A DNA stretch of 64,000 nt from Rufibacter sp. LB8 (GTDB taxonomy: Bacteria; Bacteroidota; Bacteroidia; Cytophagales; Hymenobacteraceae). Every line of letters starts with the position of its first letter. The first letter of the stretch is position 1. The DNA is taken from the NCBI RefSeq assembly GCF_014876185.1, contig NZ_JADALJ010000001.1, forward strand, positions 3,907,001 to 3,971,000, in the 5' to 3' direction. Below are positions 267 through 61,120 of the stretch, one piece after another. Under the pieces are notes generated by a model that was given only the letters and a program-made list of their open reading frames with translations, was not told where the DNA came from and did no database searches. The position numbers were made by a program, and so were the translations under genes.

Positions 267-304
267 CGTTTTTGGCTTCGTTTCCAGAAATGAGGGCAAA
301 AACG
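267..304. repeat. 38-bp intergenic palindrome, copy 1
   Basis: First of 26 copies of a dispersed inverted repeat with half-site CGTTTTCGGGCTCATTTC and a 2-nt centre (CA), the right half being its reverse complement. Many copies extend the arms with TTCC/GGAA. In this copy the outer TTTTTG/CAAAAA arm pairs well but the inner arm is imperfect (GCTTCG against TGAGGG). It could form a hairpin in DNA or RNA. No associated transposase is in the window. Confidence 0.85.
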
Positions 305-318
305 GAAATTGATTTCAC

Positions 319-474
319 GCATATCGTCCCCCTTTGAAGGGGGTAGGAGGATGATTAACTTTTGCTGATAATCTGCATTTCCGAGAATCATTTCCCATTC
401 ACCTTGAGCATTGCCATCAGTTCTTCAACCGGCCTTGTCATCCCCCTACCCCCTTCAAAGGGGGACGATATGCG
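319..474. repeat. Inverted-repeat (MITE-like) element, purine-tract type
   Basis: Two 36-bp arms, 319-354 and 439-474, are reverse complements of each other with one mismatch and enclose 84 bp that code for nothing obvious. Each arm carries its own small hairpin, CCCCCTTTGAAGGGGG, followed by a TAGGGGGATGA-like tail. The element starts 14 bp after a 38-bp palindrome. A related single arm occurs at 34568-34602, also next to such a palindrome. The shape resembles a non-autonomous miniature element, but target-site duplications were not identified. Confidence 0.7.
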
Positions 475-514
475 CTGATAAAATATTTTAGAAGGCTTTT
501 TAAAAAAAAGAGCA

Positions 515-549
515 CGAAAAAAGGCCTCACCATAACAGTGAGGCCTTTC
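515..549 (-). terminator. Intrinsic terminator of sodA
   Basis: A 10-bp G/C-rich stem, GTGAGGCCTT paired with AAGGCCTCAC around a 7-nt loop, lies 24 bp beyond the sodA stop. Read on the minus strand it ends in a run of six T, the standard form of a Rho-independent terminator. Confidence 0.85.
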
Positions 550-571
550 CCATAAATAAGATTAAGTCAGA

Positions 572-1183: not shown

Positions 1184-1241
1184 AGTTTTTATGTGTTTTA
1201 GGTTAGAAAATACTAGGTTCTGTTTTATATACGGAACGGGC

Positions 1242-1769: not shown

Positions 1770-1807
1770 CGTTTTCGGCTTCATTTCTGAAAATGAGCCC
1801 GAAAACG
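1770..1807. repeat. 38-bp intergenic palindrome, copy 2
   Basis: Near-perfect copy: CGTTTTCGGCTTCATTTC pairs with GAAAATGAGCCCGAAAACG with two internal mismatches. It lies upstream of tadA and 6 bp before the inverted-repeat element at 1814-1944. Confidence 0.9.
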
Positions 1808-1813: not shown

Positions 1814-1944
1814 CCTCACCCTAAATCCCTCTCCCGCGGAGAGGGACTTTAAAGCAGATGTGTTTTCAGGCTGTTTTACTCAAACAGGCCGAAAACGGAA
1901 AGACAGAGCTCCCCTCTCCGTGGGAGAGGGGCCGGGGGTGAGGT
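1814..1944. repeat. Inverted-repeat (MITE-like) element, CCTCACCC type, with nested palindrome
   Basis: Left arm 1814-1850 (CCTCACCC...CCCTCTCC CGC GGAGAGGG) is the approximate reverse complement of right arm 1910-1944. Each arm contains its own CCCTCTCC/GGAGAGGG hairpin. Exactly between them, at 1861-1897, sits a variant of the 38-bp palindrome. The same organisation recurs at 12291-12421. The element fills the gap between two minus-strand genes and lies just beyond the stop of the gene at 1947-2501. Confidence 0.75.
1861..1897. repeat. 38-bp palindrome variant nested inside the inverted-repeat element, copy 3
   Basis: The inner arm differs from the consensus on both sides in a paired manner (GGCTGTTT on the left, AAACAGGCC on the right), so the stem is kept although the sequence has changed. 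This argues that base pairing is what is conserved. Confidence 0.75.
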
Positions 1945-3392: not shown

Positions 3393-3430
3393 CGATTTTG
3401 GCCTCTATTTCTGAAATACAAGCGAAAACG
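3393..3430. repeat. 38-bp palindrome, degenerate copy 4, in the nuoB leader
   Basis: CGATTTTGGCCTCTATTTC and its imperfect partner ending GCGAAAACG occupy almost the whole nuoA-nuoB gap and stop 3 bp before the nuoB ATG. The hairpin would overlap the ribosome landing region of nuoB. An in-frame TTG upstream would translate the repeat, but the family start is the ATG after it. Confidence 0.65.
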
Positions 3431-8346: not shown

Positions 8347-8384
8347 CGTTTTCGGCCTCGTTTTCAGAAATGAAGCCAAAAACA
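8347..8384. repeat. 38-bp intergenic palindrome, copy 5
   Basis: CGTTTTCGGCCTCGTTTTC with right half GAAATGAAGCCAAAAACA; arms pair with a few mismatches. It starts 8 bp after the nuoF stop and forms the left border of the unrecognised gene at 8438-8872. Confidence 0.85.
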
Positions 8385-8437: not shown

Positions 8438-8872
8438 ATGAAGTTAACCATTGAAGCAAATCAAGTCATATATGAAATGGACCCTAGGAATAAGTGGGTT
8501 ATGGATATAGGCAAGATTAAATTCATTGGGGAGGATACCACGGCGAATGGCCCTTGGGAGCCAGATTATTTTTTTGTCTTTGCAGAAAAAGAAAATGAAT
8601 GGTGGCAAGCTCCTAACGAGGCTGTGAAGGAAATGGGGTTTTGGACACAGTTAAGCGAAAAGCTAAATTGTGAAGTTGGTCCAACTTTAGCTGCTTCAAC
8701 ACAATGGGCAACTAAGGTGTTGTACCCTGTGTCCTTAGCGGGACAGGAGATGTTTGAAATAATTCAGATTGACCAAAAGTCAAAGTCATTTTGGCAAAGA
8801 ATTTTTGGAAGTGCAGCCACGGAAAGACTTGTCTTAACTGAAAATGTGAGGAAGCTTTTTCATCAGGGATAA
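8438..8872 (+). CDS. Unrecognised protein encoded inside the nuo operon
   Basis: A 144-residue soluble protein starting MKLTIEANQVIYEMDPRNKW. It is acidic and aromatic-rich (PWEPDYFFVFAEKENEWW), without signal peptide, transmembrane helix or cysteine cluster motif. I do not recognise the family. It has the look of small immunity/SUKH-like or phage-type helper proteins, but no motif supports that. The coding stretch looks more A/T-rich than the nuo genes around it. It is flanked by a 38-bp palindrome on each side, which suggests a later insertion between nuoF and nuoG. Confidence 0.7.
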   Translation: MKLTIEANQVIYEMDPRNKWVMDIGKIKFIGEDTTANGPWEPDYFFVFAEKENEWWQAPNEAVKEMGFWTQLSEKLNCEVGPTLAASTQWATKVLYPVSLAGQEMFEIIQIDQKSKSFWQRIFGSAATERLVLTENVRKLFHQG

Positions 8873-8885: not shown

Positions 8886-8923
8886 CGTTTTTGGCCTCGT
8901 TTTCCGAAACAGAGCCAAAAACA
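8886..8923. repeat. 38-bp intergenic palindrome, copy 6
   Basis: CGTTTTTGGCCTCGTTTTC with right half GAAACAGAGCCAAAAACA. Right border of the unrecognised gene, about 70 bp before nuoG, in the same orientation as the copy at 8347. Confidence 0.85.
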
Positions 8924-12244: not shown

Positions 12245-12282
12245 CATTTTTGGCCACATTTTTGAAAACGAGGCCGAAAACA
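12245..12282. repeat. 38-bp intergenic palindrome, copy 7
   Basis: Diverged copy (CATTTTTGGCCACATTTTTG with right half ending GAGGCCGAAAACA). It lies 8 bp before the inverted-repeat element at 12291-12421 in the nuoJ-nuoK gap. Confidence 0.75.
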
Positions 12283-12290: not shown

Positions 12291-12421
12291 CCTCACCCCC
12301 GGCCCCTCTCCCACTGAGAGGGACTTTGAAGCCTTTGCTTTTTTGGCCTGTTTTGGCGAAAAGAGGCCAAAAAAGCAAACGAGTACTCCCCTCTCTATGG
12401 GAGAGGGGCCGGGGGTGAGGT
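12291..12421. repeat. Inverted-repeat (MITE-like) element, CCTCACCC type, with nested palindrome
   Basis: Left arm 12291-12330 (CCTCACCCCCGGCCCCTCTCC and on) matches the reverse complement of right arm 12387-12421. A long variant palindrome lies between them at 12336-12377. It has the same design and the same 131-bp length as the element at 1814-1944. It sits inside the nuo operon and appears tolerated there. Confidence 0.78.
12336..12377. repeat. 38-bp palindrome variant nested inside the inverted-repeat element, copy 8
   Basis: TGCTTTTTTGGCCTGTTTT and its partner AAAAGAGGCCAAAAAAGCA form about 17 pairs. The outer arm differs from the consensus (TTTTTT instead of GTTTTC) on both sides, so the changes are paired. 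Confidence 0.7.
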
Positions 12422-17785: not shown

Positions 17786-17823
17786 CGTTTTCGGCCTCGT
17801 TTTGGAAAATGGAGCCAAAAACG
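17786..17823. repeat. 38-bp intergenic palindrome, copy 9
   Basis: CGTTTTCGGCCTCGTTTTGG with right half ending GGAGCCAAAAACG. It lies directly after the nuo terminator and before the stop of the minus-strand DUF2625 gene (convergent genes). Confidence 0.85.
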
Positions 17824-18586: not shown

Positions 18587-18624
18587 CGTTTTCGGCTTCA
18601 TTTCCCGAAACGAGGTCAAAAACG
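18587..18624. repeat. 38-bp intergenic palindrome, copy 10
   Basis: TTTCCGTTTTCGGCTTCATT with the right half CGAGGTCAAAAACGGAAA; the outer TTTCC/GGAAA extension pairs fully. It lies between the DUF2625 gene and the LytTR regulator. Confidence 0.87.
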
Positions 18625-21268: not shown

Positions 21269-21839
21269 GGTTTCTTTGGGTTTTAAATAGTTTTTTATGC
21301 GATTGATGTTCCAAAGGTGCAGCATGAAAGACCGTTTGCGAAGCGAAATATGATGAACGGTTTCTGGAAATGGTGAACGGCGGCAAGGATGGGTTTTAGA
21401 ATTTGCAAGAATGCGTTTTTGGCTTCGTTTCTGGAAACGGAGCCGAAAACAGGAGGGTGGTTCCTGTAGGATTTCCGGTTTTCGCGGAGCGAATGAACTG
21501 ATTGGTTGCATGGGTAGGATATGCGCTCAAGGCCGCGAGGCCTCGTCCTCCAGCTTCGCACTGCTACTTTTCCTGGGCCTGTGGGGCCCTGCCGCTGACG
21601 CGGCACCAGAAAACTAGAGGCGCTCAGCTGAAGGACTGGAAAAGGTTCCTTTCTGTCGGCTGCCATGGCTGGGAGTGGGAATTGGTCATTACATCAGCTG
21701 TTGTTGGGCTAGAGTCACTCGTGCTGCGCACGGGTTTTGCCTAGGGCAATATCTTTTAACTACCCATGGCCCACCTGAGGTGATTTAACTGGTAAAAGAG
21801 CTTATTCAATGCAAAACAGCCTCAAAGATAAAAAAGCGC
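21269..21839. other. Non-coding stretch upstream of the hydrolase gene
   Basis: Short open frames are present on both strands, but none has coding character or family resemblance. A 38-bp palindrome lies at 21414-21451. The rest, 21452-21839, holds small G/C-rich inverted motifs only. I see no RNA gene or clear promoter. Confidence 0.5.
21414..21451. repeat. 38-bp intergenic palindrome, copy 11
   Basis: CGTTTTTGGCTTCGTTTCTG with right half GAAACGGAGCCGAAAACA. It pairs along nearly the full arm and lies about 145 bp upstream of the hydrolase ATG. Confidence 0.87.
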
Positions 21840-21965: not shown

Positions 21966-22004
21966 CGTTTCTGGCTTCGTTTTCTGAAAACGGCCCCTGA
22001 AACG
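21966..22004. repeat. 38-bp palindrome, degenerate copy 12
   Basis: CGTTTCTGGCTTCGTTTTC with right half GAAAACGGCCCCTGAAACG. The outer arm carries a paired change (GTTTC and GAAAC). It sits between the inverted-repeat element and the hairpin beyond aspS. Confidence 0.65.
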
Positions 22005-26714: not shown

Positions 26715-26752
26715 TGTTTTCGGGCTCGTTTTCAGAAATGAAGCCGAAAACG
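26715..26752. repeat. 38-bp intergenic palindrome, copy 14
   Basis: TGTTTTCGGGCTCGTTTTC with right half GAAATGAAGCCGAAAACG. It lies 2 bp after the receptor terminator, between convergent genes. Confidence 0.88.
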
Positions 26753-28795: not shown

Positions 28796-28833
28796 CGTTT
28801 TCGGGCTCTAAATCTCAAATAAGACCAAAACTG
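28796..28833. repeat. 38-bp palindrome, degenerate copy 16, inside the ABC operon
   Basis: CGTTTTCGGGCTCTAAATC with an eroded right half (AAATAAGACCAAAACTG). It fills the 47-bp gap between the ATPase and permease genes. The weak right arm suggests decay where read-through is needed. Confidence 0.6.
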
Positions 28834-33778: not shown

Positions 33779-33816
33779 CGTTTTTGGGCTCAATTATAGA
33801 ATTGAGCCCAAAAGCG
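33779..33816. repeat. 38-bp intergenic palindrome, copy 17
   Basis: TTTCCGTTTTTGGGCTCAAT with right half ATTGAGCCCAAAAGCGGAAA. Compared with the consensus, the inner arm has changed on both sides (CAAT/ATTG in place of CATTTC/GAAATG), keeping the pairing. It lies between convergent TPR and methyltransferase genes. Confidence 0.88.
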
Positions 33817-34515: not shown

Positions 34516-34553
34516 CGTTTTTGGCCTCGTTTCTGAAAATGAAGCCGAAAACA
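34516..34553. repeat. 38-bp intergenic palindrome, copy 18
   Basis: CGTTTTTGGCCTCGTTTCTG with right half GAAAATGAAGCCGAAAACA. It opens a 350-bp stack of four kinds of inverted repeat between the methyltransferase gene and mutS. Confidence 0.87.
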
Positions 34554-34625: not shown

Positions 34626-34714
34626 CTGCCGCAAGTTTAGCGCAAGCGTAACTTGTGGTTATAAACTTACAACGTGTTTAGCCAAAAGTTACGCTTGCGC
34701 TAAACTTGCGGCAG
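34626..34714. repeat. Large perfect hairpin A
   Basis: Arms of 28 bp, 34626-34653 and 34687-34714, are exact reverse complements (left arm begins CTGCCGCAAGTTTAGCGCAA) around a 33-nt spacer. No coding content. No second copy is seen in the window. Confidence 0.88.
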
Positions 34715-34720
34715 GCAGAA

Positions 34721-34801
34721 AGCCTTCTATGGCGCGGAAGTTTCTTCCGTGACTTTAGTATATCATTAGTCACGGAAGAAACTTCCGCGCCATAGAAGGC
34801 T
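34721..34801. repeat. Large perfect hairpin B
   Basis: Arms of 34 bp, 34721-34754 and 34768-34801, are exact reverse complements (left arm begins AGCCTTCTATGGCGCGGAAG) around a 13-nt A/T-rich loop. It starts 6 bp after hairpin A. Each arm itself includes GGAAG...CTTCC inner symmetry, so alternative folds exist. Confidence 0.9.
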
Positions 34802-34821
34802 TGAGAATAAAAGTGAAGTTT

Positions 34822-39679: not shown

Positions 39680-41875
39680 TTAATAGCAGTCCGTCAGGAT
39701 TTGGCCGTGGGCTTGGTAGTGGCTGATGCTTTCGCCGGACTGCGCCTGGCAAATGGTTTCTAGCAGAGCCAACACGTCTTTCTGCATGGCCAAAGAACCG
39801 CAAATCATAATTATGCCACCCGTTACCAAGGTTTGGGAAAGTTTCTCGGCGTCTCGCTGTAAGACATCATTCACGTAGTGCTTTTCCGCTTCGCGGGAGA
39901 GGGCCACTTGTAGGGTAGTCAAGTGTTGACTAGCCTGGTATTGTTGCAGGAACGGCTGGTAAAGGGCAAAGGAGGCGCTGTTCCTGAAACCGCAGTAGAG
40001 ATGGATTGGGGTTTTCTGGCGGTTCTGATGAAGCATGCCCAAAAACGGGCCAATACCGGTGCCGTTGGCAATCATGACCACCTGTGGCGCCTTTTCAGGG
40101 AAATGGAAATGGGGGTTTTGGACAATGCGCGCCTGTAGCGTGTCGCCGGTCTTTAGACGGTGCAGGAGCTCAGAGCCGATGCCGTTGGGGTGTAACCTGA
40201 CGCTTATCTGTAATTCCTGGTCCACCACGCCCAGCGAGTAAAGCCGCTCACGGTGGTCATTGGCCGGATAAATAGCCAGCAAATCGCCGGAAGTAATTTT
40301 CAGTTTTCTGGTTGGCTTCAGCCTGAGCAAGAAAGTGCCCTCAGATTGGGGCGTGCCGGTGTTGCTGGTGACGGTAAGCGTTTCCAGGCGTTTGGTATGC
40401 GGCTGAAGCAGCTCCGGCAGAACGGTCAGCTGAATCCCGCTCTGCTGGGACCAGGCCTCGGCCCACAACTTGAATTCCTCCGGAGACCTATCATTCACGG
40501 TATGGATGTCCACTGCCGGTGTGGCCCATTCTTGCTGGGTCAACGCTTGGTGCACTTCAAAAGCATACTGGCAGAAATCTGGGTATGCGTGCGACCCAAA
40601 CCCCAGCACAGAGAACTGGACCGGCTTGGCCTGCGGGAACTTCTGGAGCAGCGCCCCGAACTTCTGCGCATTGGTAGGGGCATCGCCCAGGCCATAGGTG
40701 GCCGTAAGCACCAGCAAATGTTGGGCGGCTGGAAATACCTGGTATTGGTTCAGTTCAGTGATAAATGATTTCTTTCTCTGTTTGAGCAATTGCTGGTGAA
40801 TGGCCTGCGCAAACCGGAAGGTGCTGCCGTTCTCTGAGCCCACTAAAATAACAAAATGACTTTCCTCTGCCGTGTAGTTGTTCTTAACGCGGTTGCCTCT
40901 TCGTTTTAACGTGATGGCAAACCCAGAGTAAATAAAGAACAGTATATTGCCGCAGGCCACCGCCAAAATAAGGGCCCATACTATGCTGGTTCGGCCGGTG
41001 TGCCAGTCCAGGCTCAGGGTGGTGAGCAGTTGGGCGGTGGGGTACTTGGCTTCGCTGAGAATGTCGCCGGTGATTTGGTTAACCGCCACTTCGCGGTCTT
41101 TTAGCTTGAGCGTAAAATAATCTTCCGGGTCCTCAGAGAACGGGAATTCAACTTCCAGAACCTCGCTCAAAGATGTTTCCTGGAAGATAGGAAAGTCTGA
41201 ATATGATTTAGCAGGCTGGGTTTTAATGGCATCATAGTCCACCTGCATAGAAGTTTTCTCGGCAGGAATTAGCTCAAACCGAGCCAGGGAAAGATAGGTG
41301 CCGCTCAGCGCGATGATAAAGATGGGAATCAATGACAACCGGCCCAGCACCACGTGGTAGTACTGCGCGAAGCTGTCTTTGACTATTCTGGTAAAAAAGC
41401 ACTTGAAGCCCCGCTGCCGCTGAAGAATGAGCATGGTGCCCGATACAGTAATCAGCAACAACAAAAAAGAAGTAAGCCCGATGATAAACCGGCCGGTCTC
41501 TTTAAAGAACAGAGAGCGGTGCAGGTTGGTGGTCCACTGGAAGAACTCGCTCTGTTTTTCAGGCGTGCCTAAAATCGCCCCGGTACTTGGGTTTACATAG
41601 ACTTCAATGTTCTCTCCCTCTTCATTGCTGCCCTTTACCTGCACAAATCCGTGCACGTTCACCAACAGGTTAGAAATGCCAGGGTGTTTTTCCTTGAGAA
41701 GCGGTAGGGTCTGGGCCAAGGTGCGTTGCTCCGTGCCGTCTACCTTGTAGGGCTGCAGTTTCTCGGCTACGGGCTCCAGGGCCAGAATAGTGCCGGTGAT
41801 GGCTGCCAGGGCTAGAAAAAGAAAAGAAGATACAGCCAGGGCTAAGTGGCTGTATCTCCAGATGGAAATGGTCAT
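39680..41875 (-). CDS. PepSY membrane protein fused to flavodoxin and FAD/NAD(P)H reductase domains
   Basis: A 731-residue protein. Residues ~1-330: PepSY-associated transmembrane region with four helices and an extracytoplasmic PepSY-type insertion. Residues ~345-490: flavodoxin-like domain (VGSENGSTFRFAQ for FMN phosphate, TATYGLGDAPTNA). Residues ~500-731: ferredoxin-NADP reductase-like domain with FAD motif RLYSLGVV, NAD(P) site GTGIGPFLGML and C-terminal ICGSLAMQKDV. It can carry electrons from cytosolic NAD(P)H through two flavins to the membrane. The genes for DUF2271 and ankyrin proteins lie directly upstream (14-bp and 4-bp gaps), and apbE is convergent. The electron acceptor is inferred, not shown. 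Confidence 0.9.
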   Translation of the reverse strand: MTISIWRYSHLALAVSSFLFLALAAITGTILALEPVAEKLQPYKVDGTEQRTLAQTLPLLKEKHPGISNLLVNVHGFVQVKGSNEEGENIEVYVNPSTGAILGTPEKQSEFFQWTTNLHRSLFFKETGRFIIGLTSFLLLLITVSGTMLILQRQRGFKCFFTRIVKDSFAQYYHVVLGRLSLIPIFIIALSGTYLSLARFELIPAEKTSMQVDYDAIKTQPAKSYSDFPIFQETSLSEVLEVEFPFSEDPEDYFTLKLKDREVAVNQITGDILSEAKYPTAQLLTTLSLDWHTGRTSIVWALILAVACGNILFFIYSGFAITLKRRGNRVKNNYTAEESHFVILVGSENGSTFRFAQAIHQQLLKQRKKSFITELNQYQVFPAAQHLLVLTATYGLGDAPTNAQKFGALLQKFPQAKPVQFSVLGFGSHAYPDFCQYAFEVHQALTQQEWATPAVDIHTVNDRSPEEFKLWAEAWSQQSGIQLTVLPELLQPHTKRLETLTVTSNTGTPQSEGTFLLRLKPTRKLKITSGDLLAIYPANDHRERLYSLGVVDQELQISVRLHPNGIGSELLHRLKTGDTLQARIVQNPHFHFPEKAPQVVMIANGTGIGPFLGMLHQNRQKTPIHLYCGFRNSASFALYQPFLQQYQASQHLTTLQVALSREAEKHYVNDVLQRDAEKLSQTLVTGGIIMICGSLAMQKDVLALLETICQAQSGESISHYQAHGQILTDCY

Positions 41876-51255: not shown

Positions 51256-54200
51256 TTATTGTTTGATAAAGCGCAAGGTCTTTTCAAACTGCTCGCCTTT
51301 CACCTTCAGGATATACATCCCTACTGGCAGCGTGCTGATATCTAACACCTGTCCGGTTGAAATCTCAACCTCTTGGGTAGAAGCCAACTTGCCGTCTGCC
51401 CCATAGATTTGAACAGTTGCTTTACCGGTAGTGCCAGTAATGGTTAGGTTCAACACATCGGTAGCTGGGTTAGGGTATACTTTGGCTTCCACTTGAATGG
51501 CCACCGCTTTTGACTTGACAGAGATGATCTTGGTGTACTCAAACTTACCATCAAAGTCCACCTGGCGCAATCTGTAGTACACCGTGCCGTTGACCGAAGC
51601 TGCATCTAAGAAACTGTAGTCCATCTCAATGGTGGTGGTGCCGTTTCCTTTCACCTTGCCAATCATTTGGAAGTTCTTGCCGTCTGTGCTGCGTTCCACC
51701 TCAAAGAAGTCATTGTCTTTCTCAGAGGCTGTTTTCCAGTTCAGCAATACTCCATTGGTTTGCAACTTGCCGGTAAAGCTGATCATGGTTACAGGTAGCG
51801 GCGTGCTTACTGCGTTGTCTCTGAAGAGCGGTAACAGTGCTCCCTCTGGTTGAGCTGGTACAGTTTCCACTCCAAAGTTATCAGCATCAAACAAGTTCAC
51901 CAGGCCATCTTGGTCAGTATCTAAGTAGAAAGTGGTGTTTGAATCCAGAAAGTTAGGAATGCCTCTGTTGCTATTGTCCAGCCAGTCTGGTATACCGTTC
52001 CTGTTAGCGTCTGTGTTTCCATAAAGGTTAAACCCATTACCGGCTTGGGTATTGTAAATAGATCCGGCTAAGATTAGGTCATCAATGGCTCTTCCATTAA
52101 AGTTAAAGTCATGACCTTCAAAATAATCTTGGCCAAAGTCATTGTCTGTGTCCAAATCCAGATAGTCAGGAATAGCGTCAGATAAGGCAAACTCAGCATC
52201 TCTATTTACTGGCTCCAAGGTAAATCCGCCTCCTTGGGTAGCATCAAAGGCATCATCTATTCCGTTTCTGTTAACATCAAAACCAGAAGGAGCCCTGTAG
52301 CCTGTTTTGCCCACTGAAGCAGTTTGTGCCTCTATTAAGTCCTTGATTCCGTCATTGTCGGCATCTAAGTCTAAGAAGTCTTTACGGCCATCTTGGTCTG
52401 TGTCTGGCATTGAGAAGATAGAAGCTTCACCTGATACTGACAAGGCGCTGAGCGGCATACCTTGTGCGTTGATAATGCCACGCATGGTTGCAGTCAGGGC
52501 ATTGTAGATATCATTGCTAGGGCTTACACCACCATTGGCCTCTGTTACGTTGGCAATGCCATCACCGTCCATGTCAAGGTCTAAACTGTTGATGATACCG
52601 TCTAGGTCTAAATCAAACCAGTCATTGATGCCATCTTCGTTTTTGTCTCTGAAGGCTCCATACACCGGATGCACAAAACTTGGATTGGTGTAGTTTAAGA
52701 ATGGACTACCATCTGTGGTGCCAAACGGATCAACACCAGCACCAGAAATAACATCTGTGATTCCGTCGTTGTTGTCATCAATGTCTTCCAGGTAGCTGAT
52801 TCCGTCGCCGTCCCAATCCCCCAAGATGTTTAGAGCTACCAATTGATTCTCTGTAACATTTCCATTGATGTCTGTGGTAGATATTGTCAAGTTATACACC
52901 CCTGGGCGCAATAATCTGAAGTCTTCTACTACTATGGTACCTTGTGCGGTCAAACGTGTTCCTGCAGGCAAAGTGCCATCTGTAAGAGTTGCGCTGACAA
53001 TAGCGCCATCAGGGTCCGTAACTGTCGCCATCTCATCCGCATTCCTATAGTTGTAGAAGTGCTGCGCCACAGCTATTGTATAGAAAGCAGGGTTATCAAT
53101 AACAGTGATAAAGGCAGTAGCTGCATTATTTTCCTCAAAGGCATCAAAGGTAATGGTAGAGATAGAAGCGGTTACTAAAGTATTGCCCACTTCTTTAGCT
53201 ACCAATGAGAACTCCAAGGCGGCGGTTTGATTTCCTGCTAAGGTACCAATGGTCCAGATTCCGGTGTTGAAATCATAGGTGCCCACAGATGGAGTAGCGT
53301 TTTGATACTCCAGGGAACTTGGAACTGGCACCATAACTGAGACTCCTTCTGCCGCAATAGCAGAATTATTGGTGGCAGTCACCACAAAGGAAACCGTTTG
53401 GTTCAAGGAATGAGGGCCACCCACGAAAGCTGCGGCAATAGATACGTCTGCCATGGGTAGTACCGTAATAGACCTTGATTCACTGTTATTGGCAGTAACG
53501 TTGTCGTATTGATTAGCAGGCGTTACTATATTAGCGGTAGTAGTGAGCACTCCTGTAGTAACTGGTTTCACCACCAAAGTCAATATTTGCGTGCTGCCAG
53601 CAGCCAAATCAGAAGCCAAGGACCAAATGCCTGTTGTTTCATTGTAGATGCCATTCCCTGCAGTAGCAGTCACTAACTGTAAGCCTTCAGGTAAGAGGTT
53701 GGCTACCTGAACACCCGTAGCAGCATCTACTGTACTGTTGTTTTTAACACTAACAGTGAAGGTAGTGTTGATGCCTGCATAATAGGGACCATCTGCTACC
53801 GTATTGGTTACCTGCAAATCAGCACTTGGCGACACGAAAATGGTGGCAAAGGCCGTGTTGTTTGCTGTCAGGATGTCAACAGTACTTGCTTTTTGCGTTA
53901 ATTTCGTGGCACTTAGGGTGATACTACCCGTTACATTGGGATACCCCATCACCACCAGTTGCTTAGATTCACCAGGCTCCAGTCTTGCAATAAAACCTTC
54001 GCCGGTAGTATGGTCATACTGCACGCCTGGGTCCGCTTGTACTCCTGTAAAGGTGATAAATCCTGTACGGCTATCTTTGAAAGTCAAATCAGTAGCCGCA
54101 TCTGGACCTGTGTTGGTAACAGTCACCGTGAACGTGGCGATGGAGGCATTACGATAATATTCTGTACCAGTATTGCTTTTAACTGTCATGTCTACAGTTA

Positions 54201-57200
54201 TCTCAGCCTTGCCATTTATGAGAACATTCTCTGTGTCAGAATCATTAGCAGCATTTACATCTACTTCTGTAGTTGTAGTGCGGGTAGAAGTCAAGGTGTA
54301 ATTTCCGGCTGCAGTGGCTTTCCCAATTAAGGTAAGGGCAGTAGTAGTGTTGACGCCCAGGGTATTGATCGTCCAAATGCCTGTTTCAGAATCAAATGTT
54401 CCCATGCCAGGGGTAGCACTAACAAGGGAGAAACCTGTAGGCAAGCCAGTCTCAATATTAATGTCTGTTGCACCAACTGGACCATTATTTCTGGCATTAA
54501 CCGTAAATGTGACGTTATCGCCGTTATAGTATGTTCCTGCTGGTATGGTATTAGTGACGGCAATATCTACGCTTGGTGAAACTTCTATACTTGTTGTAAA
54601 AGTATTATTGGACGTAACTTGATCAACCTCGTTACTAGCATTTCTAGTTGTCGTGCTTGTTAAACTACCTGTTCTGTTAGGTCTTACAACCATAGTCAAT
54701 TCCTTCGTCTCATTTGCAGCTAAGTCACCAATGGTCCAAATACCATCATTGCTGGTATAGGTAGTGCCGTCTGGAGCAGAAGCACTCACGAAAGTGAATC
54801 CAGATGAAGAAATGAACCTGTCTAGAATCTTAACACCAGTTGCATTGTTTGGACCTTCATTCTTGGCAGTTACCGTGTAAATTATATCCTTTCCAATATA
54901 ATATGGTCCTTCAGCAAAGCTATTGGAAACTGCTATGTCAACTGATGGTAATATAGTTACGGTGTTGATAGCGTCATTATTTGCCAGAACACTTTCATAC
55001 TCTGCGCCCGCCACCTTACTAGCAGTTGTAATAATGTCACCAGCCATTGTAGGTAAAACAGTGATTGTTAAGGTTCTTATTAAGCTTGAGCTCGTTCCGG
55101 CGGCAAGACTTCCCACTGACCAAATGCCGGTAACTGGATTATACTCTCCTTGCGTAGTGGTTGAGCTTACGTAGGTAAGACCTGCTGGCAATAAGTCTTC
55201 AATGCTTACTTCTGTTGCAGGGCTTGGGCCGTAGTTTCTTACATTGACAGTATAAGTAAAAGGGACGCCATTGTACTTTGCCGCTGTAGTTACAGTATTG
55301 GTCACGGCAATGTCAACTGTTGGGTTTACTTCCAGAAGAACACCGGCAGTGTTGTTGCCGGCAATTAAATCCACTTCAGCGGATGACAACCTACTTGCGC
55401 TTTGAATGAGGGTTCCTGCTCTGTTTGGTTTGGCAATTACCGTTAAGGTGACACTCTCCCCAACTGCTAACTCACCAATTGCCCAGTCGCCAGAAGCATT
55501 TGCATAGGTTCCTTGGCTCGGATTTGCACTTACATAAATAAATCCAGCTGATGAAGAATATAGATCCCTTACTACTAATGATGTAGCTGCATTAGGGCCA
55601 TTATTAGTAACAGTTGTTGTAAATGTAACCTCGTCTGTTGCATTATAGGGGCCAGCGGAGATTGATTTTGTTACAGCTATATCAGCGGCAGCATTTACTG
55701 TTATGCTGTTAGAAGCAGCATCATTGGTGGTGACATTGTCTATTTCATTGCTGGCAATTTTGGAGGCCGTTGTGGTGTAAGTGCCAACTTCAGTTGGTCT
55801 AGCTACCAGGGTAAGGGTTCTAGTGGCATTTACGGCAATGCTTCCTACCTCCCAAATGCCAGTGCTAGCATCAAAATTGCCCACAGAAGGAGTGGCAGAG
55901 ATAAAGGTTAATCCTTCTGGCAAGTCATCTACTGCTACTACGCCAGATGACGCATTAGGGCCATTGTTTCTGATACTTACGGTATAAGTGACATCTTTGC
56001 CTACATAATAAGGTCCCGCAGAGACCGTATTGGTCACAGACAAATCAGCTTGTAAGGGTGCTCCCGCGCTAATAGCATTTGCCTCAGAGTTATTAGAAGT
56101 ATTTTTGTCATACTGATCTAACCGTACTGTAGCAGTGGTGGTTAATACATTCGTATTGGTAGGTCTTGCCACTAGGGTTAAAGTTTCTGAATCACCTGAA
56201 TCAAGATTGCCAATGGTCCAAAGACCGGTAGAAGCAACATAAGAGCCAACAGATGGTGAAGCAGAAACAAATGTTAATCCAGATGGTAATCTATCTGTTA
56301 CAGAAACCCCTGTGGCTCCGTCTGGGCCTAGGTTGGTGACAGTAACGGTATAGGTTACATTTGTGCCACTAAAGTATGGTCCTTCAGAAACTACATTCGT
56401 AATAGCCAAATCAGAAGCTGCACCTACTGTAATAGTGTTTGCTGCTGTATTATTTGCTACGTTATTATCAATTTCAGAAGAGCTTATTTTAGTGGCAGTA
56501 GTGGTAAAAGAGCCTGTGGTTGTAGGAATCACTACTAAAGTCAAGGTTTGAGCTGCTCCACTGGCTAAGTTGCCTACCGTCCATAATCCAGTAGCTGCAT
56601 CATAACTACCTAAGGTGGGTGTAGCGCTTACCAAAGTCAAATCCGCCGGTAACTGATCTTGGACAGAAACATTAGAAGTAGCACCTGGACCGTTATTCCG
56701 GGCAACAACTGTATATGTTAAGGTTTTACCATTGTAATATGGTCCTGCAGACACAGTATTAGTCACTGCAATGTCAGCTGTAGCTTCTACCGTTATAGTA
56801 TTAGAGGCGATATTGTTAGCTCCATTACCATCAAATTGATCCGCTGAAATTCTGGAAGCAGTGGTAGAAACACTACCAGATACCCTTGGCTTTACAACCA
56901 GTGTCAAAGTTTCAGTTGCACCCTTGGGAAGTGAAGCAATATCCCAATTACCTGTGGCAGAAGTATAGGTTCCGGTAGAAGTAGTAGCGCTAACGAAGGT
57001 AAAGTTAGTAGTAGATAGCAAATCTCTTATAAGAACATTGGTAGCATTATCTGGCCCATTATTGGAAGCAGTTACGGTGTAAGTTACTTCTTCCCCTTGT
57101 AAGTAAGGTCCGGCTGCAACAGTATTGGTCACAGCAATATCAGATTGTGGTAAGACTGTGATACTGGTAGAAGAGACGTTGTTAGAAGAAACAAGGTCCG

Positions 57201-60200
57201 TCTCATTTATAGAAACCAAAGTAGCCGTGGTGCTGATGGCACCTGTGGTATTGGGGGCTGCCACTACCGTAATCACAGCGGTTGCCCCACTCGCCAAGTT
57301 AGGAATTGACCAAGTTCGAGCCACGTTGTCAACAGTGGTGCCTTCAGGAGCCGTAAAACTCACTACCGTAAGACTGGCAGGAATCTGAGCACCAATTACT
57401 ACGCCAGTAGCGGTGTTAGGGCCGTTGTTTCTGATGGTTACGGTATAGGTCTCATTTACGCCATTGTAATAAGGGCCAGCTGAAACTACATTGGTGATAG
57501 CAATGTCAGCAGCCGCTTCTACCTCAATGACCGCTGGGCGTGCGTTGTTGGCAGTAACCGGGTCAAACTCTGTCTGGGCCGTTTTGGTAGCAGTTGTAGT
57601 AATAGACCCCGTGGTAGTAGGTTTAGCTACTAAGGTAAGCGTTTGCGTAGTGCCCGCTGGTAGAGCACCAATAGTCCAGAGTCCATTGCTAGAAACGTAG
57701 GTGCCTACCGTTGGGGTAGCACTTACAAACGTTAAGCCTGTAGGAAGTCTGTCTGTGATTACTACACCTGTGGCATCACTTGGGCCATTATTTGTAGCTG
57801 TAACGGTGTACGTTACATCCTGGCCATTCACATAAGGGCCGCTAGAGACAACATTGGTAACTGCTACGTCTGCAGATGCACCCACAGTAATAGAGTTTGA
57901 AGCGCTGTTATTCGTGCTTACCCCATCATTTTCATTGCCTGCTGTTCTGGCAGCAGTGGTGGCGTACGTGCCTACGGCTGTTGGAACAGCTACAATGGTA
58001 AGTGTCTGGGTAATGCCATTAGCAATAGGAAGGATCCAGGCACCAGTGGAAGCATTATATGTGCCAGCAGAAGCAGTAGCGCTTGCGAACGTCATGCCAG
58101 CCGGCAAAAGATCTGTAATGGTGGCACTGGTGGCGTCATTAGGACCAATGTTACGGGCCGTGACAGTGTACGTAACCGGTTGACCAACATAATATGGGCC
58201 GGTAGCCACCGTGTTGGTGACAGCTATATCAGCAGTAGGGTTTACCGTAATAGTGGCAGTCTGGCTGTTATTACCAGAAACATTGTCAAACTGGGTTCCG
58301 CCTGTTTTGGTAGCAATGGTGGAAATGGTTCCGGTGGTAGATACTTTAGCATTCAACGTAAGGGTTTTGGTTTCCCCAACAGCCAAGGCGCCAACTGTCC
58401 AAAGGCCGGAAGTAGCGTTGTAACCCGCAGGCGCAGTGCCTTGCAACGTTAATCCGGTTGGTAACTTGTCAGTTACTGTTACACCCGTAGCATTATTAGG
58501 GCCTAAGTTGGTGGCAGTGACGGTATAAGTCACAATGTCCCCATTGTTATAAGTGGTTTGCGCTACGGTATTTTTAACCTCAATGTCAGCAGCGGCTACC
58601 ACAGTGACGGTGGCCGTGGCTGTGTTATTAGCAGCCGTTGGGTCTGGGCTGAACTGCGTTTTATTAATGACGTTTGAGGCACTTCCTACTGCCAAAGGTT
58701 TTACGGTAAGGGTTAAGGTAGCACTACCAGTGGCTGCAATGTTACCTACATCCCACACACCAGTAGAAGCGTTGAAATTAGTACTGGAAGCGCTTACAAA
58801 TTCAAACTTCTCAGTATCTAACTGGTCAATTACTTTTACGCCATTGGCTACCACATTTGCGTTATTGTTCTTGGCGGTAATTGTAAAGTTAAAGGGTACA
58901 CCTACAGCAAAGGGGCCTGAGGCAGTTTTTGTAACGCCTACATCCACACTGCTGCTACAGTTGCCATAAGTGAAGGTAGAAGTCTCAGTCAATGAATTCG
59001 TGTAACCGTAAGTCCAGGTATTCATTGTTTTGGTATCTCCGGCAGCTGAAGTAGAGGAACCCCACTTATGGACACCTGTAGAGGAGTTTACCCCAAACAA
59101 CTCTCTAGGGACAGGGAAGTCAGTGGTAGAGGAGGTAGCTATGTTGCTATCATCCCAGAAGAGCAGACCATTATAGTTGGAACCAGCCAAAGGGCGCACA
59201 TCTTCCACCCGGAAGCCGTCGTTCCACTCAGCATCCCAAACCGGGAAATGCACCGGGCTTGAACCGTTCTTAAACTGGTAAGAAATATTGGTGCCTGAAG
59301 GTACTACGGCATTCAAACCGTCTCTACCATTCCAATCCAAGGTGCGTGCCCCAGCCAATCCTGACTGCTCTAGCAAAACGTCTCTTGTACCAGCTTGGTA
59401 GCCTGCAACTCCGTTTAGGTCTATATAAACAATAAAAGTACTCTTAACGCTGCTATTAATAAAGAAGGTAGCCTTTCCACCACCACCGGTAGCGGGATTA
59501 CAGGAGGAGGTAATGCCTACTGCAAAAGTAGGGGCAGTGGCACTTGGCCAGATAAGGGGGTCTGGGTTGTTCACGAAGTTGAAAAACTCAGCGTAGTCTG
59601 TCTGGCTGGTCTGGCTTCTGCGAAGTTGCTCTGGGGTGGTTCTGCCCGTGGCAGGTATAGACCCAGCGCTGTTGGTCACAAACCGGAAGAAGTTCTGCGG
59701 CGCAATACCCGCCAACTCAAATTTCTTTACAAAATAACGGTCTGTCTCATCATCGCTAGGCACCAATGGGAACATGTTGAAGGTGCTGGCAAACACGTTG
59801 GTGGTTCCGCCAGAAGAGAAAGACCACAACTTGCTGCGCATACGGCCTTGTCTTTCATCACCATTAGCGTCAATTACCGTGAAATCCCAGAAATCATAGA
59901 CAGAGAATCTCCGGCCATCATCTGTCCAGCCGGTTTCGCCTTCCTGCGTGAACTCCACATAGTAGTCATAGTCAACGTTGGTGTCATTGTAAATGCTGAG
60001 CGGACGGTAACCAGTATTTACCGATTTTCCGTTGATGCTTCTGTTAGGGCCAGCTTCTGCTTCAGCGGCGGTGTTGATGACCCCGTTCTGGTTGGCCACT
60101 AAAAGCATGTCTCTGGTGGAGGAAGTGTTAGCTAGCAAGGTATTGGCCTGCACAAAAGTGCCGTCATCTACCCCCGTAGCAGCGTTTGTGCGGCGTACCG

Positions 60201-60558
60201 TAAGAATAAGGTTGGCCTGGTTAGCCTGCGTCTGGTCATGAATAGCCCGGTGCACCCCGTAAAATAGGCGTTCCCCCGCCTTCACCCTAATATACAGCCG
60301 GTGGTCTCTGGAGTACGTAGCCCCATTCCGGCTAAAACCAGATGGCTTCAGAAAGCTCAAAGACGTAATGGCCACCCCAGTAGCGGTGGGGAAGTTGGCA
60401 TCATGTGCCAAGTAACCCGCCCTGGTGTTGCGAGGGTCTGTCAAGGCATAGCTTGCAGTACCGGTGGTATTGGGGGTAAGCTGCTTTGACCCTTCACCAA
60501 GAACGGTGAGCGGGAGTAGGAGCAAAGCGAAAAACAGAACGCGTAAGTTTTGGGGCAT
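51256..60558 (-). CDS. Giant T9SS-exported surface protein with 16 DUF11 repeats
   Basis: About 3100 residues. Signal peptide MPQNLRVLFFALLLLPLTVLG. Residues ~22-530: unique N-terminal region with Ser/Thr/Asn-rich beta segments. Residues ~533-2480: sixteen DUF11 repeats of about 122 residues, most beginning ADIAVTNTVSAGPYYNG and containing VTYTVTARNNGPNATGV-like text. They are followed by a cadherin-like domain, an Asp-rich calcium-binding zone (DWDGDGISYLEDIDDNNDGI), a fibronectin-like module, and a type A sorting domain (VYPNPATDVLNLTITGTTGK...KTLRFIKQ). The architecture equals the 982-residue paralogue with more repeats. No cysteine-rich or enzymatic domain is seen. Likely a long surface fibre or adhesin. 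Confidence 0.93.
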   Translation of the reverse strand: MPQNLRVLFFALLLLPLTVLGEGSKQLTPNTTGTASYALTDPRNTRAGYLAHDANFPTATGVAITSLSFLKPSGFSRNGATYSRDHRLYIRVKAGERLFYGVHRAIHDQTQANQANLILTVRRTNAATGVDDGTFVQANTLLANTSSTRDMLLVANQNGVINTAAEAEAGPNRSINGKSVNTGYRPLSIYNDTNVDYDYYVEFTQEGETGWTDDGRRFSVYDFWDFTVIDANGDERQGRMRSKLWSFSSGGTTNVFASTFNMFPLVPSDDETDRYFVKKFELAGIAPQNFFRFVTNSAGSIPATGRTTPEQLRRSQTSQTDYAEFFNFVNNPDPLIWPSATAPTFAVGITSSCNPATGGGGKATFFINSSVKSTFIVYIDLNGVAGYQAGTRDVLLEQSGLAGARTLDWNGRDGLNAVVPSGTNISYQFKNGSSPVHFPVWDAEWNDGFRVEDVRPLAGSNYNGLLFWDDSNIATSSTTDFPVPRELFGVNSSTGVHKWGSSTSAAGDTKTMNTWTYGYTNSLTETSTFTYGNCSSSVDVGVTKTASGPFAVGVPFNFTITAKNNNANVVANGVKVIDQLDTEKFEFVSASSTNFNASTGVWDVGNIAATGSATLTLTVKPLAVGSASNVINKTQFSPDPTAANNTATATVTVVAAADIEVKNTVAQTTYNNGDIVTYTVTATNLGPNNATGVTVTDKLPTGLTLQGTAPAGYNATSGLWTVGALAVGETKTLTLNAKVSTTGTISTIATKTGGTQFDNVSGNNSQTATITVNPTADIAVTNTVATGPYYVGQPVTYTVTARNIGPNDATSATITDLLPAGMTFASATASAGTYNASTGAWILPIANGITQTLTIVAVPTAVGTYATTAARTAGNENDGVSTNNSASNSITVGASADVAVTNVVSSGPYVNGQDVTYTVTATNNGPSDATGVVITDRLPTGLTFVSATPTVGTYVSSNGLWTIGALPAGTTQTLTLVAKPTTTGSITTTATKTAQTEFDPVTANNARPAVIEVEAAADIAITNVVSAGPYYNGVNETYTVTIRNNGPNTATGVVIGAQIPASLTVVSFTAPEGTTVDNVARTWSIPNLASGATAVITVVAAPNTTGAISTTATLVSINETDLVSSNNVSSTSITVLPQSDIAVTNTVAAGPYLQGEEVTYTVTASNNGPDNATNVLIRDLLSTTNFTFVSATTSTGTYTSATGNWDIASLPKGATETLTLVVKPRVSGSVSTTASRISADQFDGNGANNIASNTITVEATADIAVTNTVSAGPYYNGKTLTYTVVARNNGPGATSNVSVQDQLPADLTLVSATPTLGSYDAATGLWTVGNLASGAAQTLTLVVIPTTTGSFTTTATKISSSEIDNNVANNTAANTITVGAASDLAITNVVSEGPYFSGTNVTYTVTVTNLGPDGATGVSVTDRLPSGLTFVSASPSVGSYVASTGLWTIGNLDSGDSETLTLVARPTNTNVLTTTATVRLDQYDKNTSNNSEANAISAGAPLQADLSVTNTVSAGPYYVGKDVTYTVSIRNNGPNASSGVVAVDDLPEGLTFISATPSVGNFDASTGIWEVGSIAVNATRTLTLVARPTEVGTYTTTASKIASNEIDNVTTNDAASNSITVNAAADIAVTKSISAGPYNATDEVTFTTTVTNNGPNAATSLVVRDLYSSSAGFIYVSANPSQGTYANASGDWAIGELAVGESVTLTVIAKPNRAGTLIQSASRLSSAEVDLIAGNNTAGVLLEVNPTVDIAVTNTVTTAAKYNGVPFTYTVNVRNYGPSPATEVSIEDLLPAGLTYVSSTTTQGEYNPVTGIWSVGSLAAGTSSSLIRTLTITVLPTMAGDIITTASKVAGAEYESVLANNDAINTVTILPSVDIAVSNSFAEGPYYIGKDIIYTVTAKNEGPNNATGVKILDRFISSSGFTFVSASAPDGTTYTSNDGIWTIGDLAANETKELTMVVRPNRTGSLTSTTTRNASNEVDQVTSNNTFTTSIEVSPSVDIAVTNTIPAGTYYNGDNVTFTVNARNNGPVGATDINIETGLPTGFSLVSATPGMGTFDSETGIWTINTLGVNTTTALTLIGKATAAGNYTLTSTRTTTTEVDVNAANDSDTENVLINGKAEITVDMTVKSNTGTEYYRNASIATFTVTVTNTGPDAATDLTFKDSRTGFITFTGVQADPGVQYDHTTGEGFIARLEPGESKQLVVMGYPNVTGSITLSATKLTQKASTVDILTANNTAFATIFVSPSADLQVTNTVADGPYYAGINTTFTVSVKNNSTVDAATGVQVANLLPEGLQLVTATAGNGIYNETTGIWSLASDLAAGSTQILTLVVKPVTTGVLTTTANIVTPANQYDNVTANNSESRSITVLPMADVSIAAAFVGGPHSLNQTVSFVVTATNNSAIAAEGVSVMVPVPSSLEYQNATPSVGTYDFNTGIWTIGTLAGNQTAALEFSLVAKEVGNTLVTASISTITFDAFEENNAATAFITVIDNPAFYTIAVAQHFYNYRNADEMATVTDPDGAIVSATLTDGTLPAGTRLTAQGTIVVEDFRLLRPGVYNLTISTTDINGNVTENQLVALNILGDWDGDGISYLEDIDDNNDGITDVISGAGVDPFGTTDGSPFLNYTNPSFVHPVYGAFRDKNEDGINDWFDLDLDGIINSLDLDMDGDGIANVTEANGGVSPSNDIYNALTATMRGIINAQGMPLSALSVSGEASIFSMPDTDQDGRKDFLDLDADNDGIKDLIEAQTASVGKTGYRAPSGFDVNRNGIDDAFDATQGGGFTLEPVNRDAEFALSDAIPDYLDLDTDNDFGQDYFEGHDFNFNGRAIDDLILAGSIYNTQAGNGFNLYGNTDANRNGIPDWLDNSNRGIPNFLDSNTTFYLDTDQDGLVNLFDADNFGVETVPAQPEGALLPLFRDNAVSTPLPVTMISFTGKLQTNGVLLNWKTASEKDNDFFEVERSTDGKNFQMIGKVKGNGTTTIEMDYSFLDAASVNGTVYYRLRQVDFDGKFEYTKIISVKSKAVAIQVEAKVYPNPATDVLNLTITGTTGKATVQIYGADGKLASTQEVEISTGQVLDISTLPVGMYILKVKGEQFEKTLRFIKQ
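52560..58960 (-). repeat. Tandem DUF11-coding repeat array within the giant gene
   Basis: Sixteen units of about 365 bp each, spanning the DUF11 part (about 53100-58960), then the calcium-binding tail. Units share strong amino-acid motifs but are clearly diverged at the DNA level. So the array is old and not a recent tandem duplication. Boundaries are approximate. Confidence 0.7.
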
Positions 60559-60900
60559 ATACTTGGAATAATTGGTAAAGCAGATCTAAGACTCTGTTAA
60601 TATAAAATTTATAAGCAGTAAAAGGAATGAATAGTCGCTAATTCACTTTCTCATTTTATTAGTGCAAAAATGCTTGATTAGTTCAATTTGACTTCACAAA
60701 ATTCGGTAAATACGGACGGTTGCCCGTTGAATATTAAGCGTGCTAGGTGAATAAGCCCAAATCCTCGTTGAAAATTACTCTTATTAGTAGTGTCAAGCGG
60801 TTTTGCAAAAGCATCAGTCTGTATTCAAAGCTATGGTAGTGAGCATGATTGAGATAGGGCAGTAGGTTCTTATTAAATGCATATACGTTCACCTGTTTTC
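60559..60900. other. Non-coding stretch upstream of the giant gene
   Basis: A/T-rich upstream region of the giant gene with no open frame of coding character. A minus-strand TAnnTTTG with proper spacing was not found. Confidence 0.45.
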
Positions 60901-60938
60901 CGTTTTTGGCCTCCATTTTAGAAAGGAACCTGAAAACA
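60901..60938. repeat. 38-bp intergenic palindrome, copy 25
   Basis: CGTTTTTGGCCTCCATTTTAG with right half GAAAGGAACCTGAAAACA; outer flanks CTGTTTTC and GAAAACAG nearly pair. About 340 bp upstream of the giant gene. Confidence 0.78.
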
Positions 60939-61082
60939 GAAAGAGGTTAACTTACTAGAAGAGCCATTGTTTGCTTAGTATAGGGTGTTGACTTTCTGGC
61001 AATAAGTTGATGATCAAAAAAAATTCCATTGGTAAGCGGCCTGCGGAGGTAGCTAGAGCGCTTGGTGGTAAAATAGAAAATC

Positions 61083-61120
61083 CGCTTTGGGGCCTATTTA
61101 CGAAATAGAGCCCCAAAACG
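61083..61120. repeat. 38-bp palindrome variant, copy 26, with extended arms
   Basis: AAAATCCGCTTTGGGGCCTA on the left and the partner ending AAAACGGATTTT on the right (61077-61126). The inner arm GGGGCCTATTT/AAATAGAGCCCC differs from the consensus but still pairs apart from one mismatch. It lies about 100 bp after the stop of the next gene on the minus strand, so it may end its transcript. Confidence 0.75.

Follow-up and report, generated by a model that had tools for sequence, protein, structure and literature searches.

Dispersed bacterial palindromes are usually regarded as scattered selfish repeats. The question raised by the 64,000-nt stretch of Rufibacter sp. LB8 studied here (contig NZ_JADALJ010000001.1, referred to as C1, positions 3907001-3971000; hereafter the window) is whether this view also holds for a 38-bp palindrome that occupies many of its intergenic gaps or whether the element is a working part of the genome. 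What emerged from comparing the window's genome (G000; 4.75 Mb in two contigs, C1 and the smaller C2 of 155 kb) with other genomes is a family of around 2,000 copies that holds largely the same places between genes, at the loci compared across 16 Rufibacter genomes, while the copies in any one species change sequence in a coordinated way. It is position rather than mobility that stands out as the distinguishing feature of these palindromes, and the question of junk or working part becomes directly testable in Rufibacter.

Copies were counted in the window and in twenty evenly spaced 20-kb stretches, a sample of 464 kb of G000 in total, using weight matrices that were trained and scored on the same stretches. 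The half-site CGTTTTCGGGCTCATTTC has 21 matches in the window at up to 3 mismatches, compared to 0.08 on average and never more than 1 in 100 shuffled sequences, which bears out the claim of a first-pass annotation that the density is far above chance. Its count of 26 copies also held: The own-genome matrix finds 24 full palindromes, of which 22 have 11 to 18 Watson-Crick pairs out of 18 and two (at 3393 and 28796) are weak with 8 pairs each, and a matrix for the whole genus adds two length variants at 1861-1897 (around 37 nt) and 21966-22004 (around 39 nt). Weak genus-matrix matches at 485, 40010, and 47019 (13-17 bits), the one at 40010 inside a gene, were excluded from this count. Across the 464 kb, 206 palindromes score at 14 bits (Markov control: 0), and their number is nearly independent of the cut-off (208 at 10 bits and 202 at 20 bits); hardly any decayed copies are thus seen, a statement valid for fixed-length copies only since the own-genome matrix is blind to length variants like the two in the window. 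Extrapolation from the sample gives around 2,000 palindromes for the G000 genome, more than the hundreds of copies that the annotation had named as support, and a degenerate 38-mer at up to 3 mismatches matches 1,457 places in the whole genome while the reversed pattern matches none. Contig C2 is depleted, with 5 copies in 80 kb sampled (L227-L230) versus 8.9 per 20 kb on C1, i.e., around one-seventh of the chromosomal density.

The palindromes avoid genes, as the annotation had noted for the window: In G000, 8 of 202 lie in called genes, where 153 would be expected from the coding share (these and all gap counts are approximate and rest on a home-made codon-score caller, coding share 0.76-0.81). 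Among gaps of at least 45 bp in G000, a palindrome is present in 35 of 40 convergent, 79 of 152 codirectional, and 24 of 48 divergent ones, so that all three settings described before were seen. None of the 26 window copies is wholly inside a called gene, in agreement with the first description, with the qualification that the last 16 bp of a called frame are shared with the copy at 60901 and that the copy at 21414 lies in a longer open reading frame (ORF) of uncertain start. The copies and adjoining features of the window are listed below, with a strand where a feature has one, scores by the own-genome matrix unless stated otherwise, and Watson-Crick pairs out of 18.

267..304, palindrome, 53 bits, 15 pairs
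1770..1807, palindrome, 59 bits, 15 pairs
1861..1897, palindrome variant of around 37 nt with CTGTTTT-type arms as in other species, genus matrix 25 bits, own-genome matrix below 10
3393..3430, weak palindrome, 27 bits, 8 pairs
8347..8384, palindrome 8 bp past the nuoF stop codon, position kept in 16 of 16 Rufibacter genomes
8438..8872, plus strand, orphan ORF of 144 aa between the two nuoF-nuoG palindromes, no Pfam match
8886..8923, palindrome 69 bp before nuoG, at a distance of 69-72 bp in all 16 genomes
12245..12282, palindrome in the nuoJ-nuoK gap, 44 bits, gap with palindromes in 16 of 16 genomes
12338..12375, second nuoJ-nuoK palindrome with genus-type arms, own-genome matrix 28 bits, genus matrix 41 bits
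17742..17783, plus strand, separate hairpin before the next palindrome, 95% complementary inverted repeat, read as the intrinsic terminator of nuoN
17786..17823, palindrome 62 bp beyond the final sense codon of nuoN (56-74 in 16 of 16)
18587..18624, palindrome adjoining the lytTR stop (last sense codon 5-12 bp away in all 14 genomes with the gene found)
21414..21451, palindrome within a longer ORF whose true start is uncertain, 50 bits
21966..22004, palindrome variant of around 39 nt, genus matrix 25 bits
23885..23922, palindrome in a divergent gap, 62 bp upstream of the aspS ORF (61-70 in 15 of 16)
26715..26752, palindrome in a convergent gap, 56 bits
27731..27768, perfect palindrome with flush outer stem, 62 bits, 18 pairs
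28796..28833, weak palindrome in a 47-bp gap, 22 bits, 8 pairs
33779..33816, palindrome with matched changes in both arms in a convergent gap, 42 bits, 16 pairs
34516..34553, palindrome, 55 bits
34822..34859, palindrome, 49 bits
37607..37644, palindrome, 41 bits
37786..37823, palindrome, 43 bits
39494..39531, palindrome in a convergent gap, 60 bits
39631..39668, second palindrome of the same convergent gap, 47 bits
47726..47763, perfect palindrome in a convergent gap, extended by the flush outer stem AAAATTTC/GAAATTTT, 62 bits
60901..60938, palindrome sharing 16 bp with the end of a called frame of 58 codons, 39 bits
61083..61120, palindrome with an 8-bp outer stem, 31 bits

The core of the element consists of two inverted 18-nt half-sites flanking a 2-nt center. 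Across the genus it is most constant in the T-tracts that each half has at positions 3-5 and 15-17, and the common pattern is made of four boxes, GTTTT-N6-GTTTT-N4-AAAAC-N6-AAAAC, at spacings of 11, 9, and 11 bp; in G000, weaker symmetric conservation (TTTC) continues outward for around 4 nt more on either side. The center had been described as CA, which captures one orientation of it: Among 194 sampled G000 sites the dinucleotide is CA in 76 and TG in 65, i.e., a single oriented core, mostly YCAG or its complement. Relative to transcription, CA and TG were counted 42 and 34 times in G000 and 38 and 24 times in G013, which we did not take as a signal. At a threshold of 18 bits, 352 half-sites lie within palindromes and 1 is isolated in G000 (329 and 1 in G013). 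As in a dyad binding site, two half-sites of one consensus vary largely independently at a conserved spacing, with weak residual coupling.

All 16 Rufibacter genomes, eleven of them represented by one 20-kb stretch each, contain 35-60 sites per 100 kb when the matrix is fitted to each genome (the control sequence gave one match for G009 and none for the other 15). Consensus and sharpness vary by species, and the half-site carries 24.5 bits in G000, 24.8 in G013, and 12.0 in G009. The four-box pattern at up to 2 mismatches is likewise found in 16 of 16, with 180 to 1,756 matches in 15 genomes and 28 in G000, where the inner G box has been replaced. Among 104 genomes of five other genera, 20 from two genera have 1-3 matches to this pattern and 7 match the reversed control, while patterns of the G000 type were confined to Rufibacter among 79 genomes and had one match in one other genome in a scan of 59. 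Eight outgroup nuo loci yielded one weak match to the genus matrix (Hymenobacter, 14 bits), and their reversed sequences yielded three. The exact consensus 38-mer had no match in a scan of genome contigs from which the window's own genome was possibly excluded; in the same collection, the nearest relative with a name was Rufibacter ruber, its NuoL being 96% identical. No description of these Rufibacter repeats was found in searches of the open-license literature.

Conservation of position is most apparent in the nuo operon, where distances were measured from the last sense codon. In all 16 genomes, one palindrome follows nuoF at 8-11 bp, one precedes nuoG at 69-72 bp, and one follows nuoN at 56-74 bp. 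Near lytTR, the distance is 5-12 bp in each of the 14 genomes with the gene found, and aspS is preceded by a palindrome at 61-70 bp in 15 of 16. Across three 20-kb loci, 25 orthologous gaps of at least 36 bp present in at least 10 genomes carry a palindrome in every genome (8 gaps), in 47-93% of genomes (7), or in none (10). For the sister genomes G007 and G013 (179 kb against 247 kb), 80 gaps of at least 45 bp were compared, with a palindrome in both genomes in 44, in one in 3, and in neither in 33, and both gene distances are the same within 3 bp for 18 of 29 copies that correspond one to one. Instead of the differing places in related genomes that mark mobility, 18 of the 25 orthologous gaps are all-or-none and 44 of 47 occupied gaps are shared between the sisters. 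Outgroup nuoF-nuoG gaps in Pontibacter and Adhaeribacter go down to 58-60 bp and lack the palindrome.

The sequence of the copies also changes more slowly than their surroundings in most comparisons. Orthologous copies of G007 and G013 differ at 4.5 of 36 positions versus 16.3 in the adjoining 40 bp (27 copies, ungapped), and copies diverge less than the near flank in 14 of 15 genome pairs when small shifts are allowed. A species-specific consensus is seen even at orthologous positions. With the looser genus matrix, orthologous copies are no closer to each other than non-orthologous ones between G000 and G001 (0.33 vs 0.33, n = 8) or between G007 and G013 (0.21 vs 0.22, n = 15). The set of 27 copies gave a contrasting result for the latter pair, 4.5 for orthologous versus 7.2 of 36 for non-orthologous copies, with sets and matrices differing between the two tests.

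Pairing between the arms was compared with re-dealt sets, in which arms are reshuffled among the sites of one genome and Watson-Crick pairs are recounted. The observed values of 14.31 pairs of 18 in G000 and 14.44 in G013 are close to the re-dealt ones of 14.16 (standard deviation, SD, 0.08) and 14.35 (SD 0.07). Stem position 10 combines G/G or C/C at 93 and G/C or C/G at 92 of the 194 G000 sites, and G-T and A-C mismatches on the transcript strand of codirectional gaps number 115/115, 90/114, 51/67, and 70/86 in four genomes. Selection on an RNA hairpin should favor G-U pairs. Di Nocera et al. (2013), writing on classical repetitive extragenic palindromes (REPs), take GT pairing as a sign of RNA function (PMC3733652); this sign is missing in the Rufibacter palindromes. 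The near-independent arms of G000 and G013 and the about equal numbers of G-T and A-C mismatches fit a putative DNA-level site with two half-sites. Core positions 1-9 do change together at orthologous loci across species (combined z 13.7, where one copy often enters as both the left and the right side of its gap), but the control retains the shift of consensus from species to species, which alone would suffice to give this result. Four copies had been cited before for matched changes in both arms; those at 33779 and 12338 indeed keep 16 pairs each, whereas those at 1861 and 21966 have 9 and 7 at fixed length and need a 1-nt shift.

A minority of the palindromes are extended by a flush outer stem of at least 5 bp, namely 18% in G000 (3% after re-dealing), 12% in G013 (0%), 18% in G006 (1%), and 6% in G009 (0%). 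Within convergent gaps these shares are 32%, 28%, and 26% in G000, G013, and G006 and 6% in G009, and divergent gaps of G006 reach 30% of 10. The first four flanking bases of the G000 outer stems are partly consensus, and those farther out are unique to each site. Many outer-stem copies form the series A-tract, stem, palindrome, stem, and T-tract, i.e., a terminator with the palindrome as its tip; a GC-rich stem directly followed by a T-tract on the transcript strand is found in part of this 6-18% subset and is lacking from the core alone. Across the 16 genomes, the outer stem covaries at the loci top7 (paired 0.84 vs 0.49, z 7.7), rny0 (0.93 vs 0.71, z 6.2), and, more weakly, top2 (0.38 vs 0.25, z 3.1), which contribute the 6 of 24 locus sides above z 3, and the other 18 are below. 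The likeness to intrinsic terminators is limited to a minority of palindromes that form the tip of an A-tract/stem/T-tract hairpin, whereas most have no outer stem and 24 of 48 divergent gaps in G000 carry palindromes.

Genes come and go between neighboring copies. Comparison of G007 and G013 revealed 11 gaps with one palindrome in one genome and two in the other, and both outer distances are equal within 15 bp in 8 of them and on one side only in 3. The inserts reach 6 kb (a 1,970-codon frame). One of the 8 that are bounded on both sides contains a gene for a CLC chloride channel, and one of the one-sided inserts has a gene with a type IX secretion sorting domain. The CLC gene is found at the same place in G006 and G013 and is absent in G007, where one palindrome remains; because G007 is the sister of G013 on a seven-protein tree, loss of the gene leaving one palindrome is the simplest account. 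Length changes of at least 60 bp affect 24 gaps. A palindrome is present in one or both genomes at 18 of them, and the two outer distances are retained at 9 of these 18. An island of 37.8 kb, the largest, is located in G013 between the genes orthologous to genes 19 and 20 of G007; it contains 9 palindromes and is not bounded by them. At the nuoF-nuoG gap, eleven genomes have two palindromes with differing contents between them and five have one. Simple deletion between repeats explains these palindrome-to-palindrome changes without a recombinase.

We tentatively propose, on the strength of the sequence comparisons, that the palindromes may be an ancestral REP-like element that now serves as a putative protein-bound boundary site, a reading that we find plausible while rating it short of probable. 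A REP-like dyad family would have arisen or spread in the Rufibacter ancestor, as its restriction to the genus and the empty outgroup gaps suggest, and each genome would now have it at around 2,000 places, most of them where one gene or transcription unit borders on the next. Each half would be the recognition unit for a symmetric, dimeric or tetrameric, putative DNA-binding protein, and the bound site would keep neighboring units apart in a boundary, road-block, or architectural role, with at least one copy per border kept by selection. The retention as a working DNA element is suggested by conserved position, slower change than the flanks in most comparisons, the behavior of the half-sites, and the scarcity of decayed fixed-length copies; the binding protein and any effect on transcription are what we infer from these patterns. 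At a minority of sites, the palindrome would also have become the tip of an intrinsic-terminator hairpin, and paired copies would act as short repeats through which intervening DNA is deleted. A boundary protein, if existing, would represent a kind of genome punctuation that to our knowledge has not been described for bacteria. A more far-reaching version, which we consider unlikely, is a genus-specific, chromosome-wide boundary system in which a putative protein would read around 2,000 four-box dyad sites between transcription units and insulate them or block transcription, site and protein specificity would shift together per species, and whole transcription units would be deleted or exchanged exactly from site to site.

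Several observations weigh against the proposal of a protein-bound boundary site. No partner protein could be named from the sequence, and half-sites of 24.5 and 24.8 bits in G000 and G013 far exceed what a protein would need for around 2,000 sites, which suggests recent homogenization or copying; the high information content together with the consensus shifts could reflect co-evolution with a protein, renewed copying, or gene conversion among the copies. Copies diverge only slightly less than their flanks for G004-G014 (0.28 vs 0.30) and G000-G001 (0.33 vs 0.37), and the order is reversed for G001-G010 (copies 0.33 vs flank 0.26, n = 4). There is a real, if modest, excess of pairing over re-dealt arms in G006 (13.64 vs 13.09, SD 0.13) and G009 (10.59 vs 9.75, SD 0.17), and predicted folds are stronger than those of re-dealt arms in 4 of 4 genomes (-16.1 vs -14.8, -12.8 vs -12.1, -12.9 vs -10.7, and -8.1 vs -5.7 kcal/mol). 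Mutual information between arms exceeds z 3, a score inflated by the counting of both orientations, for 10 of the 55 pairs of positions in G000 and for 5 of 66 in G013, chiefly mirrored ones. This coupling of the arms mainly involves core positions 6-8 and the flanking base pairs, and two linked G000 positions (11 and 14) show fewer matches than expected. Given the excess in G006 and G009, the stronger folds, and the flush outer stems, hairpin formation is not irrelevant. The suggestion of the first-pass annotation that pairing is under selection finds partial support, in these two genomes, at the base of the stem, and in the outer-stem subset, while G000 and G013 are barely above re-dealt arms. 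With respect to transcription, a crude finder detected a separate terminator in 13 of 66 codirectional palindrome gaps of G000 (antisense control: 8), so that most of these gaps show none and a place at borders of transcription units is putative. The promoter motif TAnnTTTG showed no association with palindromes in codirectional gaps either, being present in 8 of 48 gaps with and 6 of 32 without a palindrome in G000 and in 10 of 54 and 8 of 62, respectively, in G013.

A competing explanation that appears rather unlikely to us is that of ancient REP-like mobile hairpins, of the type of bacterial interspersed mosaic elements (BIMEs) or REP doublets forming hairpins (REPINs), which a transposase would have spread in the Rufibacter ancestor and which would now be mostly immobile and harmless or mildly useful. 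As short, extragenic palindromes of high copy number (206 in 464 kb, with 8 of 202 in called genes), the elements do resemble REPs in size, palindromy, copy number, gene avoidance, and preference for convergent gaps; the same study describes REP-type palindromes as 20-40 bp long, extragenic, high in copy number, mostly located between convergent or codirectional genes, and in some families placed inside other palindromes (PMC3733652). Spread by transposition would also agree with the depletion of the plasmid-size contig C2 and with the palindrome not being found in the scanned nuo loci of Adhaeribacter and Pontibacter (L044-L048). The first-pass annotation had suggested a search for a REP-associated tyrosine transposase (RAYT), and PF01797 (Y1_Tnp) indeed has 45 matches in the genus, distributed over 15 of 16 genomes, with none in the palindrome-rich G007. 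Among 33 of these loci that were examined, copies on both sides were present within 100 bp at 0, within 200 bp at 4, and within 500 bp at 12, compared to 10%, 22%, and 26% of 58 control genes of G000 at the same distances. The widest of these distances may favor a REP origin, but with no closely flanked locus and none of these genes in G007, a RAYT as mobiliser was unsupported. The known REP end tags are rare (GTAG 3, GTGG 1, and CGTC 4 of 195 in G000; CGTC 8 and GTGG 5 of 181 in G013; CGTC 2 and GTGG 1 of 82 in G006), in line with the earlier remark that the half-site matched no REP family familiar to the annotation. Unlike BIMEs and REPINs with a RAYT, the Rufibacter palindromes also have near-symmetric four-box arms and no preference for GT pairs, their density is similar in each genome sampled, and they hold conserved rather than scattered positions with a species consensus even at orthologous ones. 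A Bacteroidetes group of such transposases, tnpA_REP subclass 2.6, is credited with "atypical secondary structures" in another study, and Y1 proteins of around 180 aa in Rufibacter often share NH.H and YIH.NP motifs with it (PMC6006769), but the palindromes do not closely flank Y1 genes at the 33 loci examined.

A role as RNA hairpins, either bidirectional terminators or stabilizers of mRNA 3' ends, would account for the palindromes in 35 of 40 convergent gaps of G000, for outer stems at 6-18% of sites (re-dealt 0-3%) with their often terminator-like build and their covariation at top7, rny0, and top2, and for the stronger folds in 4 of 4 genomes. It would not account for an A-tract, rather than a T-tract, on the 3' side of the core, for arms that re-assort almost freely in G000 and G013, for a position 10 that is mismatched as often as paired, or for the missing G-U preference. 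Palindromes in half of the divergent gaps of G000 and upstream of aspS in 15 of 16 genomes, outer stems that show no preference for convergent gaps in G009 (6%) or in G006 (30% of 10 divergent gaps), the 18 of 24 locus sides without covariation above z 3, and a weak mean fold in G009 (-8.1 kcal/mol) point the same way, and we consider this role quite unlikely. Sites of recombination are a very improbable explanation. A recombinase would insert or remove units of gene plus palindrome at resident palindromes, as in a dispersed cassette system that works like attC or pdif, sites that are imperfect palindromes between which gene units come and go. Both outer distances kept within 15 bp in 8 of 11 one-versus-two gaps with inserts of up to 6 kb, the CLC gene present in G013 and G006 and absent in G007 with its one palindrome, the oriented center, and arms that re-assort while positions within an arm are linked would all be expected. 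Deletion between short direct repeats gives the same outcome, however, and is favored by the polarity of the CLC loss; the 37.8-kb island of G013 is not palindrome-bounded, only 9 of 18 length-changed gaps keep both distances, within-arm linkage seldom extends to distant positions (z > 3 for 1 of 29 and 2 of 37 such pairs), and two thousand active sites would be ruinous. The Rufibacter sites also differ from integron attC and pdif sites in being dispersed over the whole chromosome. Another class of short sequences with around 2,000 copies per genome are the DNA uptake sequences (DUS) and uptake signal sequences (USS), which the palindromes resemble in this number but not in their build, since Rufibacter half-sites are nearly never alone (1 isolated vs 352 paired) and are rare within genes.

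The contents of some palindrome-bearing gaps merit description in their own right. The nuoF-nuoG gap (L139-L153 and the window, 16 genomes) contains inserts resembling miniature inverted-repeat transposable elements (MITEs) that differ by species, with ends TGTCATCCTGAAAGGA or GTCCCCCTTTGAAGGGGG, or a gene in the case of G000. In the nuoJ-nuoK gap of G003 (L145), an insert between palindromes encodes two small ORFs, presumably a DUF433-type antitoxin and a DUF5615-like toxin, and upstream of nuoK a block, TTTACCAAAAAATGGGAATAACTTTGG, is almost invariant in the 16 genomes, which we take to be a putative Bacteroidota promoter. Two tRNAs were the sole Rfam matches at gathering score in the window, and the palindromes match no family. 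Near the palindromes at 34516 and 34822, two large neighboring inverted repeats unlike the 38-bp family are found at 34626-34714 (41-nt arms, 90%) and 34720-34802 (35-nt arms, 100%), and the minus strand at 51256-60558 contains an open frame of 3,100 codons.

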